Of a stretch of DNA of 62,289 nt, positions 48,191-54,326 are shown piece by piece. The position numbers and the translations under genes are program-made. Source of the DNA: Armatimonadota bacterium (GTDB taxonomy: Bacteria; Armatimonadota; Fimbriimonadia; Fimbriimonadales; Fimbriimonadaceae); the NCBI GenBank assembly GCA_018268395.1, contig JAFDWQ010000012.1:1-62289 (forward strand), written 5' to 3'. Numbering within the stretch: the stretch's first letter is position 1; each line of letters begins with the position of its first letter. The notes below the pieces were generated by a model. The model was given only the letters and a program-made list of their open reading frames with translations. It did not search any database and was not told the origin of the DNA.

Positions 48191-48823
48191 TCAGGACCGT
48201 CGTCTTCGCCTGAGCGCAAGAGCGCCGAGACCGAAGGCGAGAAGCGTGGCGGGTTCTGGCACGACGTCGGCCTGAATGTCGTCCATGACCGGCGCGAGGT
48301 TGTTGCCGAACTTGATGCTCGCGATCCCGTTTCCGGTCGACTCCCAACCGAACCACACCATCGCGTTGCTGCCAGTGCCGAACGTGTCGCTCCCCATCAA
48401 GGCGCCGGCCGCGTCGTAGAAGTCCACGGTCGTGATGCCGTTCAGGTTGGAGTCGGACGCCATATAGCCTCCGAACCTCTTCACGGCGGTCGTGAAGTTC
48501 AGGTTGACGTCGATCGGGCTCCCATTGTTGTAAAGTCCGAGTCCTTGGTCGCCCGATGTGGTCAGCGCAGAGCCATAGCCGCCGAGGCCCCATGTCGCCA
48601 CGTTGACGTCGTAGATCCAGACTTGGGCGCCGCCGTTGCTGGCGAATGTGGCGCCGCCGCCCATGACGGCGAGCGAACCGAGGCCGCCCGTCGAGTTGTA
48701 GTCCTGGTAGCTCTCAAAGTCGTCGTTCATCGAACCGACGAACGGCCCGATAGGATTGATGACGGCGTGAGCGGACACGGTCGCCAGCACGAGGGCAGAC
48801 AGCATTGCTGTTCGAGTTAACAT
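48191..48823 (-). CDS. PEP-CTERM sorting-domain protein
   Basis: 210 residues: signal peptide (MLTRTAMLSALVLATVSAHA), a beta-rich lectin-like body (NDDFESYQDYNSTGGLGSLA, TTVDFYDAAGALMGSDTFGT, NGIASIKFGNNLAPVMDDIQ) and a C-terminal anchor VPEPATLLAFGLGALALRRR then RRS. The middle matches the 'PEP-CTERM DUF' pattern in which a final MDDIQ/VDDI segment precedes the anchor. An AGGAG site before the ATG is clear. Exosortase substrate by inference. Confidence 0.92.
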   Translation of the reverse strand: MLTRTAMLSALVLATVSAHAVINPIGPFVGSMNDDFESYQDYNSTGGLGSLAVMGGGATFASNGGAQVWIYDVNVATWGLGGYGSALTTSGDQGLGLYNNGSPIDVNLNFTTAVKRFGGYMASDSNLNGITTVDFYDAAGALMGSDTFGTGSNAMVWFGWESTGNGIASIKFGNNLAPVMDDIQADVVPEPATLLAFGLGALALRRRRRS

Positions 48824-49274
48824 GTTTTCTCTCCTGGCGTTTGGCGCCGCCTCTAATGTACACGCAAAAAAGGGGAAACGTTCGGACACGGCCCGCCGTT
48901 TTCCAAGTGCCCTTGCGGGTGGCATGACCAAGTTGGCTGCCTCCAGACTCCGGAAACCACCTCATGCCGCACGCCGCCGAACTTAGTCTGGAGGCTTCGT
49001 CCGTACCCACTCGAAGTCTAGGCACATCGTCGTGAAGACAACGCCGGCATCCGGGCCACCCCGGTTCTGGTCGTGCCGACACTTGGCCAAGCAGGGGGAA
49101 GGTTACCGCCGGAGCAGTCCGTCAAGCCTCCAGACGAGGTTGGCTTCTCGTCGCCAGCGCGAGAACTTTGGAGTCTGGAGGCAGCACCAAGGAACATCTC
49201 CAGGTGAAGCGGCGCTGAATCGGCCGTAGCGGCCCCGGTAACGGTTCTTCGGGGGACCGTCGTTTACTTGACCC
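48824..49274. other. 451-bp non-coding region between divergent PEP-CTERM genes
   Basis: No credible gene is present. The central 250 bp (48936-49185) form a nested inverted-repeat element, annotated separately. The flanks should carry the two divergent promoters, but none could be assigned with confidence. Confidence 0.6.
48936..49185. repeat. 250-bp nested inverted-repeat (REP/BIME- or MITE-like) element
   Basis: Four copies of one core occur in alternating orientation. Outer arms GCTGCCTCCAGACTCC (48936-48951) and its exact complement GGAGTCTGGAGGCAGC (49170-49185). Inner arms AGTCTGGAGGCTT (48985-48997) and AAGCCTCCAGAC (49124-49135). The left and right halves can each fold into a 10-11-bp hairpin. 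ACCAAG occurs just outside both ends (48927-48932 and 49186-49191) and could be a target duplication. It carries no ORF of its own. Confidence 0.75.
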
Positions 49275-49949
49275 ATGTTTCGCTTATCGAGAGGAGCGGC
49301 GGCTTGCGCGGCGGCCGCAGCGTGTGGCCATGCCTTGGCCTACGTCAACATCGAGGACTTCACGGTGGGATCCTTCACCGTAGACGCCACTCACGGCTAC
49401 AGTAAGGGACAGACCGGTCTGGACACCGACCACTCCGTCTTCGGCAAGAGGGGGTGGTTCATCGGAGGTATCGGAAACCCTGAGAACGCGACACTGACGC
49501 TTGACGTTCGCGACCATGAGCAGAAGCTCAGCACGACGTCCGATCTGCTGACATACGACATGAGGCTGGGCCTAGGGGTCAGCGGCAACGTCCTCATCGA
49601 TCTCAGCCGCGAGACGAGCGTCCTCGTCGACCTGTACACTGATCCCCCTCAGCACTTTGCCGATCAGTGGTCGATGCTTATCACCGATGTGAACGGAGTT
49701 GACACGAGCAACGACGGCTGGCTCCTCCGGCCCGGGGGCATTCGGTTCGACATCGACTCGTTCTCAAGGCAAATCGACTGGTCACGTGTACGAAGCATAG
49801 AGTTCACGGAAAACATGAACCACAGTACGAATCCGCAAGTGTACTCCGTGACCCACATTTATGCAGTGCCCGAGCCTTCCCTCGCATGCCTTGGGGCGCT
49901 GCTTCCCGTACTTCTCAGGAGGAGGACGGGCAGCGCCTCGCGCCCTTAA
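49275..49949 (+). CDS. PEP-CTERM-like secreted protein, copy 1 of a duplicated pair
   Basis: 224 residues: a signal segment rich in Ala (RGAAACAAAAACGHALA), a beta-sandwich body and a PEP-type end (IYAVPEPSLACLGALLPVLL then RRRTG). It is clearly related to the protein at 51009: both contain GWL.RPGGIRF........DWS.VR...FT and end IYAVPEP. The family function is unknown. Its TAA overlaps the TTA stop of the convergent beta-helix remnant by 4 bp, the same arrangement as in the second copy. Confidence 0.85.
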   Translation: MFRLSRGAAACAAAAACGHALAYVNIEDFTVGSFTVDATHGYSKGQTGLDTDHSVFGKRGWFIGGIGNPENATLTLDVRDHEQKLSTTSDLLTYDMRLGLGVSGNVLIDLSRETSVLVDLYTDPPQHFADQWSMLITDVNGVDTSNDGWLLRPGGIRFDIDSFSRQIDWSRVRSIEFTENMNHSTNPQVYSVTHIYAVPEPSLACLGALLPVLLRRRTGSASRP

Positions 49950-50310
49950 GGGAGTCGCCCAGAAGGTTGGTTGTCTGCAAGAACGACCCAATGCGGATCG
50001 TCAGACTCGTCGACGTAGAACAGGAACTCCGAGTACCGGTCCGCCGCGTCGATCACAGACAGGTTCGAGCCGCCTACCTTGACGAGGATCGTGTCCCCGT
50101 CGAAGTTGAACACCCGGACGGAGGATCCGCGAGGAACTTTCGTCACATCGGTCGAAAGCGTGATCGTGAGCTCGTCGAAGTCGGTGCAGAGGATGTTCCT
50201 TGCGTTGCCGCCGATCCAAGTGAAGTCGTCGTTCTGCACCTCGAAACGCTCGGGCTGGACGACGTTGTACCAAACAGGGTCGACGAAACCCATGACGGCG
50301 GGTGGCCCGA
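49946..50310 (-). pseudogene. 3' remnant of a beta-helix/tail-like gene cut at the transposase element
   Basis: About 120 codons remain, running into the transposon end at 50311. The reading frame encodes WYNVVQPERFEVQ, NARNILCTDFDELTITLSTD, VTKVPRGSSVRVFNFDGDT and YSEFLFYVDESDD. This is the counterpart of the C-terminal ~110 residues of the 754-residue protein at 51701 (WYMLHQPERV, KNIICTATSLPYTINLPTSL, TDIVPGTVVRVFWKPSSNT, GAEFVFYNDSGTG). The upstream part of the gene is gone. The frame stays open into the element to 50410, but that N-terminal piece is transposon-derived. Confidence 0.75.
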
Positions 50311-50907
50311 CCACAGGCGTGTGCGAAGCGCCTAAGGGGTAGAAAGCCCGGATGGCGGAACGGGCGAGGAGGCGCGTCTTCAACGATCCCGGCCACGCGC
50401 ACGAGCTCACCTTTTCGACCTACCGCCGCAAGCGCCTGCTTGAAGACGAGACCGTCTGCCGCGCCTTCCTCTCCGCCCTCGACGCCGCCCGGAAGGAGCA
50501 CGCCTTCCAGGTCTGGGCGTACGTGCTCATGCCCGACCACGTCCACCTGCTCCTCTTCCCGACCGGGCTGGAGGATTCGATGGCGGGGATCAGGCAAGCC
50601 GTGAAGCAACCCGTAGCCAAGTTCGGCCTGGCGACGATGAGGGAGCTCGCCGACCCTCGCCTTCAGCAGCTCCACGACGGCCGCAGACCGCGCTTCTGGC
50701 AGCCCGGCGGCGGCTACGACCGGAACATGCACTCGTCGAAGGCGTGCCGGAAGAGCATCGGCTACATCCACGACAACCCCGTCGTCGCGGGTCTTTGCGC
50801 GCACCCTTGGGACTGGGAGTTCTCCAGCGCGGCGGCCTATCGGGGCGACGACTGTGACTTCCAGGTGGACTTCCCGACGCTATAAGCGCTCGCGCACACG
50901 CCTGTGG
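50311..50907 (+). mobile_element. REP-associated transposase element with inverted ends
   Basis: The left end CCACAGGCGTGTGCG (50311-50325) and the right end CGCACACGCCTGTGG (50893-50907) are perfect 15-bp inverted repeats. The similarity continues inward as AAGCGCCTA versus CGAGCGCTTA. The 597-bp unit holds a single transposase gene. The junction at 50311 coincides with the truncation of the beta-helix remnant. Confidence 0.8.
50352..50885 (+). CDS. REP-associated tyrosine transposase (RAYT, Y1_Tnp/IS200-like)
   Basis: 177 residues. The HUH motif is in LMPDHVHLLLFPTG and the catalytic Tyr is in SIGYIHDNPVVAG; the C-terminal PWDWEFSSAAAYR is typical of the family. These single-strand-specific Y1 transposases act on REP-type hairpins and can mobilise themselves or scatter REPs. 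The gene appears intact. It sits between inverted 15-bp ends, inside the duplicated PEP-CTERM/beta-helix region. Confidence 0.93.
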   Translation: MAERARRRVFNDPGHAHELTFSTYRRKRLLEDETVCRAFLSALDAARKEHAFQVWAYVLMPDHVHLLLFPTGLEDSMAGIRQAVKQPVAKFGLATMRELADPRLQQLHDGRRPRFWQPGGGYDRNMHSSKACRKSIGYIHDNPVVAGLCAHPWDWEFSSAAAYRGDDCDFQVDFPTL

Positions 50908-51008
50908 GCCGAGATTCCACCGGGCGTGCCGTCTCCCTGCGTAGCCCACAAGCGTGCCACCCAGGAGGAGGTCACCCTGAGTCTTGCCACCCGTCGTATA
51001 CTCAGGGT

Positions 51009-51704
51009 ATGCATTTTTTGGTGAGAGGATCACTAGTAGCAGTACTATGCGTCGTTGCCGTCTCCGAGTCGGACGCCTTCATCATGATCGACGACCTGAC
51101 GGGCGGGGACTATACGACCACGATCACGCACGGGGTCGACTTCCATTTCGTCGACGGCCTGGACAAAGCGCACACGGCTTGGGGGAACAGGCAGACGATG
51201 CTCGACGTTGTGGCGAACCCTCGGGACACACCCATCACGCTGTCGGTAGGCGGCGGCCAGATGAAGACGACCATTCCGCCGGGCACTGGTGGGATGTCGA
51301 CACGGCTCAGATTGGACTGGGGGCTGGGGAACCACCCCCTGGACATGGACTTTTCCAAGGAGACGGAGATCTGGGTCGACCTGAAGGTCGAAAACCCGGA
51401 CGGACGGTTCGCGAGCATTTGGTCCGTTCGGGCGATCAATGCGGACGGTACGAGCGGATCCAATGGAGGTTGGCTTTGGCGCCCTGGAGGCATTAGGTTC
51501 AAGCTGAGCGGGTTCACTGGCCACTTGGACTGGTCCGCGGTCAGATACCTCAGCTTCACCACTGACTTCGACCCGCCCGGCTATCCAGAGAGCTACAAAG
51601 TGACAAGGATCTACGCAGTGCCAGAACCGCATACGGCGGTTCTGGCACTGCTAGGATTTTCCACCGTGATCCTACACCGGCGAAAACATGGAGACGGACG
51701 CTAG
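51009..51704 (+). CDS. PEP-CTERM-like secreted protein, copy 2 of a duplicated pair
   Basis: 231 residues: signal peptide (MHFLVRGSLVAVLCVVAVSE), a body related to the 49275 protein (NGGWLWRPGGIRFKLSGFTG, HLDWSAVRYLSFT) and an end IYAVPEPHTAVLALLGFSTV then ILHRRKHG. The two proteins are perhaps a third identical by eye, so the duplication is old. The TAG stop overlaps the CTA stop of the convergent 754-residue gene by 4 bp. The ribosome site is weak. Confidence 0.85.
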   Translation: MHFLVRGSLVAVLCVVAVSESDAFIMIDDLTGGDYTTTITHGVDFHFVDGLDKAHTAWGNRQTMLDVVANPRDTPITLSVGGGQMKTTIPPGTGGMSTRLRLDWGLGNHPLDMDFSKETEIWVDLKVENPDGRFASIWSVRAINADGTSGSNGGWLWRPGGIRFKLSGFTGHLDWSAVRYLSFTTDFDPPGYPESYKVTRIYAVPEPHTAVLALLGFSTVILHRRKHGDGR

Positions 51705-53965
51705 CTCCTCGTCCCGACGTTCGCCTGTGTGACCAGCCACCTTCCGGTGCCGCTATCGTTGTAGAAAACGAACTCAGCTCCTTGGTGTTGCGTTAGGAGC
51801 ACGTCGTTCGTTCCACCGAAGTCCACCGTCACGGTGCCGATCGTGTTCGAACTAGGCTTCCAGAAGACCCGTACGACGGTTCCCGGCACGATGTCCGTCA
51901 GTGACGTAGGAAGGTTGATCGTGTAAGGCAGCGATGTGGCCGTACAAATGATGTTCTTCTCATCGCCCACCGCCCATGTGTGCGGCGAGGCCCCTAAGCT
52001 TGGAAGCACGCGTTCGGGCTGATGAAGCATGTACCAACCGTTGGCCATCCGGCAAACCACACCTTGCTGGACCTCGTCCCAACACAACTCTCCGTCAGCT
52101 AAGTCGTAATCGCCATTTTCGTCGTAGGGGTTCTTCCAACCGACGTTGACCTCCTGGTCGGCTGTCTGATCCGGATTCAGGTTCGGTATCTGCAACCTCC
52201 CGACCGCCTTTATCGAAAGGCTGTTCACGCCCCAGGCGAAGTCGCCTCTGACCGCTGTGTTCGTGTCAGTCCTGACGAACCCCGTGTTCCTGAGCCCGTC
52301 TTCGGCGATGTAGCCAGTGACGACTGGGGGGTCTCCTGCGATGGTCGGCGTGCTTCCCCACGCCTGTTGCCAAAACACCTGCCACTGCGCCGCCCCTTCG
52401 TCTGCCTCGATCAGAAGGGCCAAATATGGGTGCGGGTCGCCCGGATCCGAAAGAACCTCGACGGCTTCGACCTGCGCACGCAGCGTCATGAGCGTCGTCT
52501 CAGAGAAGGAGTTCACGCTCGTCAGGACGATCTGGTCGAAGACCGTCGAAGTGTCGATCGTCCCGTCCACCTCCCGAACGAGCGAGAACTTGACCGTACC
52601 GCTGACCCGGCAAAGGCACTGGTAGGTCACGAGCTTCAGACCGGGCGCAGACAGGTCGATCTGGAATCCGTCCTCGTCAAACGGCTGCCAGAGCTTCGTG
52701 TCGTCGAGAAGGGCCATGAAGAACGCCTCGGGACTGGGCGAGAGGTCCGGAAGGTTTGAAGCGCCCGCGTAAGCGCCCCACTTGGCGAACCCGAAGAGCT
52801 TGTCGTCGGCCTGCTCTAGCACCCAAGGTGAGGGCATGGTCACGCCGTAGCCACCGAGGTTCAACGCCGAGGGACCATAGTCGAGACCCACGAAGTCGGC
52901 GTTCCGCAAGATGTTCACCCGCGGCCCGGTCTGGATCCACGGCGTGTCCTGCCAGGCGTTGCGGAGCGACTGCATCCTATTGCCCGGCACGCTCGGCTCC
53001 ATCGAGAACTGACGCATGTAGCTGTCGTTCGTGTAAGCCGCGATGAAGTCGCTCTTGTAGCAGCGCACGAACTCGCAATCGAAACTCTGTCGAACGAGCG
53101 CGCCCACCGCTAGGAACCTGCACTTTTCGAAGACGCACCGCAGCCGGTCGCCCGGCAGCGATTCGAAGACGAGGTTTCCCGCGCCGGAAGCCCCGTATGT
53201 CGGCCCGGTCGCGAAGGTGCAGGTGTCGACAAAGAGGCCGTACTGCGTCCCGCTCGCCTCGGTCGTCGGCCCATCGTCGTTGTTGTCGAAGCCCTTGACC
53301 AGTACCCGGTCGTCGCCGGTGGCGACCGTGAACTCCATGCCACGGACGATCACGTCCATGTTGTTGTTGAAGCTCTGGCCGTTCAAGCAGTCATAGTCGA
53401 AGAGCCGTCCCAGGTGCTCGATCCTGCCGCCGACGATCTGCAGCGCCCCCGTCCCCCGCCGTAGCTTGATCAAGGTCCCTCGGCCGACGATCTGATCGAT
53501 CGGAACGTTCTTGAACGTGCCGTGCAGGTTATAGGCATTCAGCCCGACGCCACGGTCTCCCATTCTATCGAACTGAAGATAGACGCCGGTCTCGTCGAGC
53601 GCCATGTTCCAGCCGTCCAGTTCCTGTTCGAAGGCCTGTGGCGCGTTCGAGTAGTAGCCCCGGCGACATTCCGTGCCGTAGATTCGGGAGAGGCGGGTCT
53701 GTTCCCCGTTGTCGCCCGAGCCCTTGAGCAACCCTACCGCGGTATCGACGAAGTTCAGGTAAAGCCGTTCGACGATGTGGCCCACGAACTGGCTTGACAC
53801 GAAGACGATGCCGAACGAAGCGAAACGCCTTGTGTCGTCGACTGCGACGTCGTCGACGATACGCGTGTTGTGGGGGTTGCCTTTCAGGGTCAGGTTCTCG
53901 ACCCTCATGCGGACGCCCGCACTACGCCTGAAACTGATGATCCCGCAATCAGGGAAGCAGTGCAC
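51701..53965 (-). CDS. Large beta-helix, tail-spike-like protein
   Basis: 754 residues from a GTG at 53965. The first ~350 residues form a parallel beta-helix (MRVENLTLKGNPHNTRIVDD, LQIVGGRIEHLGRLFDYDCL, LFVDTCTFATGPTYGASGAG, LRCVFEKCRFLAVGALVRQS). Then comes a jelly-roll/CBM-like region (VNILRNADFVGLDYG), and the C-terminal ~110-residue domain is shared with the remnant at 49946. Such proteins resemble phage tail spikes and pectate-lyase-3-type glycan-active proteins. The start is doubtful: the frame is open upstream to ~54273 through the 21-bp array with no ATG/GTG/TTG. Confidence 0.75.
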   Translation of the reverse strand: MHCFPDCGIISFRRSAGVRMRVENLTLKGNPHNTRIVDDVAVDDTRRFASFGIVFVSSQFVGHIVERLYLNFVDTAVGLLKGSGDNGEQTRLSRIYGTECRRGYYSNAPQAFEQELDGWNMALDETGVYLQFDRMGDRGVGLNAYNLHGTFKNVPIDQIVGRGTLIKLRRGTGALQIVGGRIEHLGRLFDYDCLNGQSFNNNMDVIVRGMEFTVATGDDRVLVKGFDNNDDGPTTEASGTQYGLFVDTCTFATGPTYGASGAGNLVFESLPGDRLRCVFEKCRFLAVGALVRQSFDCEFVRCYKSDFIAAYTNDSYMRQFSMEPSVPGNRMQSLRNAWQDTPWIQTGPRVNILRNADFVGLDYGPSALNLGGYGVTMPSPWVLEQADDKLFGFAKWGAYAGASNLPDLSPSPEAFFMALLDDTKLWQPFDEDGFQIDLSAPGLKLVTYQCLCRVSGTVKFSLVREVDGTIDTSTVFDQIVLTSVNSFSETTLMTLRAQVEAVEVLSDPGDPHPYLALLIEADEGAAQWQVFWQQAWGSTPTIAGDPPVVTGYIAEDGLRNTGFVRTDTNTAVRGDFAWGVNSLSIKAVGRLQIPNLNPDQTADQEVNVGWKNPYDENGDYDLADGELCWDEVQQGVVCRMANGWYMLHQPERVLPSLGASPHTWAVGDEKNIICTATSLPYTINLPTSLTDIVPGTVVRVFWKPSSNTIGTVTVDFGGTNDVLLTQHQGAEFVFYNDSGTGRWLVTQANVGTRS

Positions 53966-54084
53966 GAACGTCGGGTATTTGGGGTCGTCCGGATAGTCCG
54001 TGTCGACCGCCAGGATTTCACCGACAAAAGCTTCCTCCGGCGGCCCGCCTTCAGGTTGAACCTGAGCGGCGCGATTTGAGAGGC

Positions 54085-54231
54085 GACTTTCGTCTTCTGG
54101 AGCACGACTTTCGTCTTCTGGACCACGACTTTCGTCTTCTGGACCACGACTTTCGTCTTCTGGACCACGACTTTCGTCTTCTGGACCACGACTTTCGTCT
54201 TCTAGAGCACGATTTTCCCTTTCTGGAGCAC
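54085..54231. repeat. 21-bp tandem array, seven units
   Basis: Unit GACTTTCGTCTTCTGGACCA + C. Copies start at 54085, 54106, 54127, 54148, 54169, 54190 and 54211. The middle four are identical; the first differs at one base, the sixth at two and the seventh is degenerate. Because 21 is a multiple of 3, each frame repeats a heptapeptide: on the minus strand PEDESRG (the frame leading into the beta-helix protein), VVVQKTK and SRRRKSW. In the VVVQKTK frame a TAG breaks the sixth unit. Confidence 0.95.
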
Positions 54232-54326
54232 CACTTTGTCGACGGGTGGCCCCACCGTGACGTGTGAAAGATCAATGGTCGGGCCGCCCGGCGGTCGGGC
54301 CGCACCGAGCCGCCGAAGGACAGGGC

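Follow-up and report, generated by a model that had tools for sequence, protein, structure and literature searches.

A tailspike-like gene and a PEP-CTERM-family gene form a recurrent convergent pair in Fimbriimonadaceae (Armatimonadota)

The window analyzed here is a stretch of 62,289 nucleotides from an Armatimonadota bacterium (assembly GCA_018268395.1, contig JAFDWQ010000012.1; its genome is called G000 below). Two convergent gene pairs within it belong to a recurrent module of the Fimbriimonadaceae (Armatimonadota), in which a gene resembling those of phage tailspikes (the spike gene) meets a gene of the PEP-CTERM family (the partner) tail to tail. The most likely reading, to which we assign a probability of roughly one half, is that of a co-inherited convergent module composed of a domesticated tailspike and a secreted surface-glycan protein, which is now eroding in many of its copies. 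The spike gene would encode a solitary, phage-tailspike-like product comprising (i) an N-terminal cap, (ii) a beta-helix, (iii) a jelly-roll body and (iv) a C-terminal tip. The partner would be a secreted-type, all-beta protein of the PEP-CTERM family, and the stops of the two genes overlap or nearly touch.

The window pairs and their shared 3' end

The features of the two window units are as follows:

48932-49186, plus strand: dispersed palindromic repeat R1 with two hairpins (GCCTCCAGACT/AGTCTGGAGGC), upstream of PEP copy 1; 28 matches in the genome
49275-49949, plus strand: PEP-CTERM-family gene, copy 1; 224 aa, 37% identical to copy 2
49946-50290, minus strand: tip-only remnant of a spike gene; ~114 codons, BLASTP E 7e-11 to copy 2, tip HMM E 1e-41
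50311-50325: left arm of the RAYT inverted repeat, CCACAGGCGTGTGCG; 15 bp, 100% complementary to 50893-50907
50352-50885, plus strand: RAYT gene (REP-associated tyrosine transposase; Y1, IS200-like); NF047646 and PF01797
50893-50907: right arm of the RAYT inverted repeat; perfect 15-bp match to the left arm
50974-51008: hairpin ACCCTGAGT...ACTCAGGGT directly upstream of PEP copy 2; part of a dispersed repeat with matches at other pair loci
51009-51704, plus strand: PEP-CTERM-family gene, copy 2; 231 aa, PF07589 at 16.6 bits, below the gathering score of 20.7
51615-51651: perfect hairpin with a 16-bp stem within the coding region of PEP copy 2, encoding its VPEP segment
51701-53965, minus strand: spike (beta-helix) gene, copy 2, 5'-truncated; 754 aa called, homology extending to ~54040
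54063-54240: 21-bp minisatellite at the break of spike homology; eight copies, spacing 21

An earlier note on this DNA had described two diverged copies of a PEP-CTERM gene, each converging on a beta-helix gene. The two PEP-CTERM-like ORFs proved to be homologous (37% over 205 aa, E 1e-39), with the GWL.RPGGIRF and DWS.VR motifs in both, and in each case the overlap with the stop of the opposing minus-strand ORF measures exactly 4 bp (TTAA at 49946-49949, CTAG at 51701-51704). A C-terminal domain of ~109-110 residues (37%, E 7e-11) is common to both minus-strand ORFs. Both pairs are therefore real; however, the 154-aa ORF has no beta-helix and the 754-aa ORF is 5'-truncated, and the genome holds at least nine pairs instead of two.

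In copy 1, the formal ORF spans 49946-50410 (154 aa), only the last ~114 codons of which are tip; the upstream rest is readthrough of the 5' flank and start of the RAYT gene. Spike homology stops just before the left RAYT arm, near 50290. The RAYT gene itself scored 86.8 bits against NF047646 (curated cut-off 80) and above the gathering score of PF01797. PEP copy 1 has an A-rich hydrophobic N-terminus and ends in VPEP, a hydrophobic stretch and RRR; it falls below the Pfam and NCBIfam cut-offs, Pfam giving no report for it. The spike gene of copy 2 is 44% identical over residues 2-752 to a full-length gene on contig C14 of the same genome, and is short of ~310 N-terminal residues relative to its relatives of 1017-1144 aa. 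Both window units are eroded, and neither convergent gene is intact.

Several R1 matches adjoin other pair loci of the genome. Short tandem-repeat arrays similar to the minisatellite occur at C14:12495-12702 and C1:391127-391325 of G000, at or near truncated pair units. A separate PEP-CTERM gene (48191-48931, minus strand), scoring above the PF07589 cut-off, is also present in the window, and a 58% relative of it lies at the syntenic pair locus of genome G027.

A hairpin was found no more than ~45 bases past the spike stop at 14/14 pairs. Its mean best energy was -32.6 kcal/mol as compared with -21.1 (sd 4.4) at random positions, which are an imperfect control for gene ends, and nine of the 14 lay beyond the 1% tail. 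Viewed from the PEP side, the hairpin starts before the PEP stop in 12/12 pairs and is thus located inside the PEP coding sequence. The 13 unpaired or unrelated PEP-type genes gave a mixed picture, several distant ones having weak hairpins or hairpins beyond the stop; unpaired PEP copies in G000 also have strong internal hairpins. In the window, no U-tract follows the hairpins, and Rfam returned no match to a structured RNA. Situated in the final codons of the partner gene, this strong hairpin would probably terminate transcription arriving from the spike side.

Occurrence and co-inheritance of the pair

Both proteins were searched against G000 and 60 relatives, and a profile of the C-terminal half of the spike was searched against 85 genomes of the family, the positives then being searched with a PEP profile. 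This search for the same convergent pair in related genomes, as the earlier note had proposed, detected 17 tip 3' ends in six genomes of three genera (nine in G000, three in G090, two in G013 and one each in G001, G002 and G027), and each of the 17 lies tail to tail with a gene of the PEP family. Stop-to-stop spacing ranged from a 20-bp overlap to ~15 bp apart in the pairs read in detail. Beyond these 17, one further tip on contig C15 of G000 is worn to ~14-20 residues. Collection scans returned no match for a single query sequence; the alignment-based scan gave two named matches, one MAG assigned to Fimbriimonadaceae and another to Armatimonadota.

Within the genomes searched, every tip 3' end detected for the close subfamily had a partner. 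The three more distant full-length spike relatives in G003 are all unpaired. PEP genes with no detectable tip occur in G000, G001, G003, G013 and other genomes. Independent occurrence of the two families, which the earlier note had named as speaking against the pairing, thus holds for the PEP genes but not for the close-subfamily tips. The G001 pair sits between a prfA-like and an oxidoreductase-like gene, and at the same place in G003 there is a PEP gene alone. Such PEP genes without a spike, including this one where the sister species has the pair, count against the module reading. Intact full-length spikes with a partner are found in two genera (C14 in G000 and C1 in G090). The partner genes of G002 and G013 contain stop codons, a further point against the module reading.

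Some further genes were observed near these loci. Beside the unpaired distant spikes on contigs C4 and C9 of G003 (L068 8557-10089 and L067 11731-13266) lies a divergent neighbor of another family, with 51% mutual identity, perhaps a different partner. In two genera, a gene family of unknown function (MANIAYSALVNAVRGKIGTVVF...) neighbors both a RAYT gene and a pair (L057 2426-3133 and L070 9499-10197), and relatives of it lie within ~7 kb of pairs in G090.

Tip and PEP distances are correlated over 15 pairs (Mantel r 0.49, p 0.0002); within G000 alone the correlation was not significant (r 0.37, p 0.06). G013 and G027 are reciprocal nearest neighbors for tip and PEP alike; window copy 2 has its closest tip and its closest PEP in G090b, and the C14_1 unit has both in G090c. 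Part of the window shows synteny with the pair locus of G027 (DnaK-like gene, 82%; the 48191-48931 gene, 58%), and contig C8 of G000 has both genes flanking that same G027 locus, an M16-type peptidase and its neighbor; the gene names at these loci were read from sequence, not from annotation. From the synteny and the cross-genus nearest neighbors, it therefore appears that the lineages of pairs arose before the genera separated. Distribution and nearest neighbors indicate that the pairing itself also predates this split. Estimates of dN/dS were ~0.17-0.35 for tips and 0.2-0.5 for partners, with dS saturated in most comparisons.

The duplication of the whole unit proposed earlier was confirmed in G013, where tip and PEP gene are tandemly duplicated exactly with a period of 1107 bp, the partner carrying a stop, and it is further seen in the three-unit array on C14 and in the correlated distances. 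Duplication as a unit and co-inheritance are thus well supported. The main rival to the module reading, which we consider somewhat unlikely, is passive linkage: a tailspike-like gene would have landed tail to tail beside a PEP gene and segmental duplication would have copied both, with no joint function. The survival of PEP genes alone speaks for it, and so does the distance correlation, since linkage alone suffices for the co-inheritance of overlapping neighbors; the intact full-length spikes with partners in two genera are harder to reconcile with it.

The spike and partner proteins

An hmmsearch with the full-length spike alignment matched the tailspike gp49 of phage LKA1 (4ru4, E 1.4e-6) over ~120 profile positions only, within the N-terminal part of the spike, in agreement with the earlier suggestion of a tail-like fiber. 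Sequence comparison supports a tail-like nature of the convergent protein. A GDGGGG motif was read at the spike N-terminus. Pfam gave nothing significant on the full-length spike relatives other than the one on contig C5 of G003. A known phage protein was rejected for the window genes: a PHROG search of the window pair genes gave no significant match, a full-length spike relative had no match among phage records, and only one distant relative, 24% identical, was found on a viral contig. By inspection, the neighbors of the pair loci are ordinary chromosomal genes. The AF2 model of the window spike (mean pLDDT 33) was too poor to judge a right-handed beta-helix. A distant spike on contig C5 of G003 (L066 6343-9777) has a collagen-like N-terminal stretch that gives strong tail-fiber PHROG matches, and its surroundings are phage-like by eye.

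Frame breaks between the helix and the jelly roll were seen in G027 and G001 and had raised the possibility of a programmed frameshift. This was rejected, and assembly error is the likely cause, because the overlapping G001 contig ends C73 and C98 differ by one base. A tailocin or eCIS was likewise rejected, as the contractile sheath PF04984 had no match in the genome. The lack of such a sheath in the genome and of an obvious signal peptide on the spike, the latter judged by eye from the sequences, leaves the spike without an evident export route, which counts against the module reading.

An A-rich hydrophobic N-terminus characterizes the PEP-family proteins, and a low-confidence AF2 model predicts a mostly beta core with a C-terminal helix. 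There are two partner subtypes, one bearing VPEP and the other a PPA-type tail without PEP-CTERM. As to the earlier idea of a surface-sorted partner, the motif is visible in both window copies, although below the Pfam cut-off, and is missing in 6/9 paired partners of G000; exosortase sorting as a constant feature of the partners is therefore weakened. The genome contains an EpsH-like ORF of 355 aa, whose pieces of 88.9 and 20.8 bits lie under the curated cut-off of 105.55. Anchoring by exosortase would thus concern one subtype only.

Upstream of five subtype-2 PEP genes of G000, 56 bp are 87-98% identical despite widely diverged coding sequences (C14:15513-15568, C14:32089-32140, C8:66237-66292, C1:899-952 and C1:389926-389981). 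This stretch is either a conserved promoter or a recombination flank.

Joint action of the putative spike and partner at surface glycans is plausible. In this proposal, polysaccharide at the surface or outside the cell would be the common target of the two products, bound or cleaved by the spike tip and bound by the partner. It counts against the module reading that the majority of spike copies have been truncated and are perhaps silent.

Recombination, erosion and relation to known systems

The C14 array of G000 consists of a full-length spike (1087 aa) with its partner, followed by two orphan tip-partner units. Between the full-length gene and orphan 5, ~470 bp of the body are 97-99% identical (dS 0.06); at the segment NAGQARVTTTEPVKNTYNWAVNALGIKAASKFQLP, the hinge, identity drops to ~60% and stays so through the tip (dS 1.45) and the partner (dS 1.58). 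Orphan 4 has only this ~90-bp hinge in common with the full-length gene (93%). This mosaic requires recombination, which may have been ordinary gene conversion between the tandem copies or part of a switching mechanism. Tandem duplication together with gene conversion has expanded the unit in G000.

One could envisage exchangeable tip-partner cassettes, in which silent orphans recombine through the conserved hinge and change spike specificity together with the matching partner, as in rhs/CDI loci. The near-identical body followed by a diverged tip and partner, the hinge of orphan 4, the start of another orphan (C14_1) at the hinge and the 87-98% identity of the 56 bp upstream of several partner genes all fit such an exchange. 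The same mosaic is, however, expected from gene conversion of ordinary tandem paralogues; the frame of orphan 5 is shifted by a deletion, several orphans start at repeat elements instead of the hinge, and Pfam, PHROGs, NCBIfam and PADLOC revealed no toxin, immunity or delivery domains. We therefore do not claim membership of the rhs/CDI class, and we judge cassette exchange to be distinctly unlikely. The corresponding view of a domesticated tailspike diversified from one expressed spike and silent cassettes, joined at the ~90-bp hinge with a cognate secreted surface protein changing alongside, is equally doubtful. PADLOC identified no defense system, and integron cassettes were dismissed, no TIGR02249 integron integrase matching above the cut-off in the genome.

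The dispersed palindromic repeats R1, R2 and R4, with ~28-35 genome matches each, crowd the pair units. The same R2 end abuts the spike at the hinge in C14_1 and at 77, ~65 and ~14 residues from the stop in C14_2, C1 and C15, respectively, and abuts a truncated partner on C8b. Because these truncation points are graded, they suggest deletions starting from a fixed element end. Spike genes have been cut from the 5' end at REP/RAYT-type and other repeats with most partners intact, presumably by such deletions. The genome has six RAYT genes, two of them beside pair units (the window and C1), and a RAYT gene also lies beside the G013 units. The first bases of contigs C1, C14 and C15 of G000 fall within or close to R2 repeats that adjoin PEP or tip sequence; the assembly therefore breaks there, and the true array may be larger.

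These boundaries bear on passive linkage, under which the tips would be fossils, left where trimming deletions halt at a selected PEP gene. The graded truncations at R2 resemble deletions, and spike genes are far more often truncated than partners. Against this, tips of 65 to 190 codons are still open to the stop although the copies differ at dS above 1. They also bear on a REP-bounded mobile unit, in which tip and partner would move as a composite element whose palindromic ends are recognized by RAYT transposases. In its favor, R2 keeps one orientation where it borders the tip (C14_1, C14_2, C1 and C15), and it also borders the truncated partner of C8b; the opposite side is occupied by R4 in C14_2, C15 and C8b, and RAYT genes stand beside the window, C1 and G013 units. 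We nevertheless hold this to be very unlikely: R1, R2 and R4 matches are often away from pairs, adjacent deletions can explain the graded R2 boundaries, and a vacant target site of a moved unit was not found.

If spike and partner are consistently coupled, as the module reading has it, they would give a tangible example of a tailspike being domesticated, in a phylum that has received little study. The pairing also names a partner candidate for PEP-CTERM proteins, a class with mostly unknown roles, and the C14 array makes tip exchange testable. Should the functional link fail, there is still a clear record of repeat elements trimming a gene family from one end.

Four known systems invite comparison. 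LKA1 gp49 (4ru4) is described in PMC5701251 as having a beta-helix, an insertion domain and a C-terminal discoidin-like domain; the spike resembles it in the N-terminal profile match and in a similar putative order of helix then jelly roll, but the pair loci are chromosomal and solitary, a tip is added at the C-terminus, and a PEP-family partner converges on the gene. As in the PEP-CTERM/exosortase (EpsH) system (PMC1569441), subtype-1 partners carry VPEP, a hydrophobic stretch and a basic tail, and an EpsH-like gene is present, whereas subtype-2 partners have lost the motif, and motif and EpsH scores are below curated cut-offs. The RAYT gene with inverted repeats and the dispersed palindromes recall REP/RAYT elements (PMC3733652, PMC2817692), and R1 and R2 end in CGTC; the repeats here, however, are ~75-170 bp long as opposed to the 20-40 bp of described REPs, and sit at the truncation points of one gene-pair family. 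Finally, rhs/CDI orphan modules (PMC3150448, PMC3967940) share with C14 a full-length gene followed by truncated copies with a conserved hinge, a variable tip and a linked partner, but the partner here is convergent and of secreted type, and the scans detected no toxin, immunity or delivery domain.
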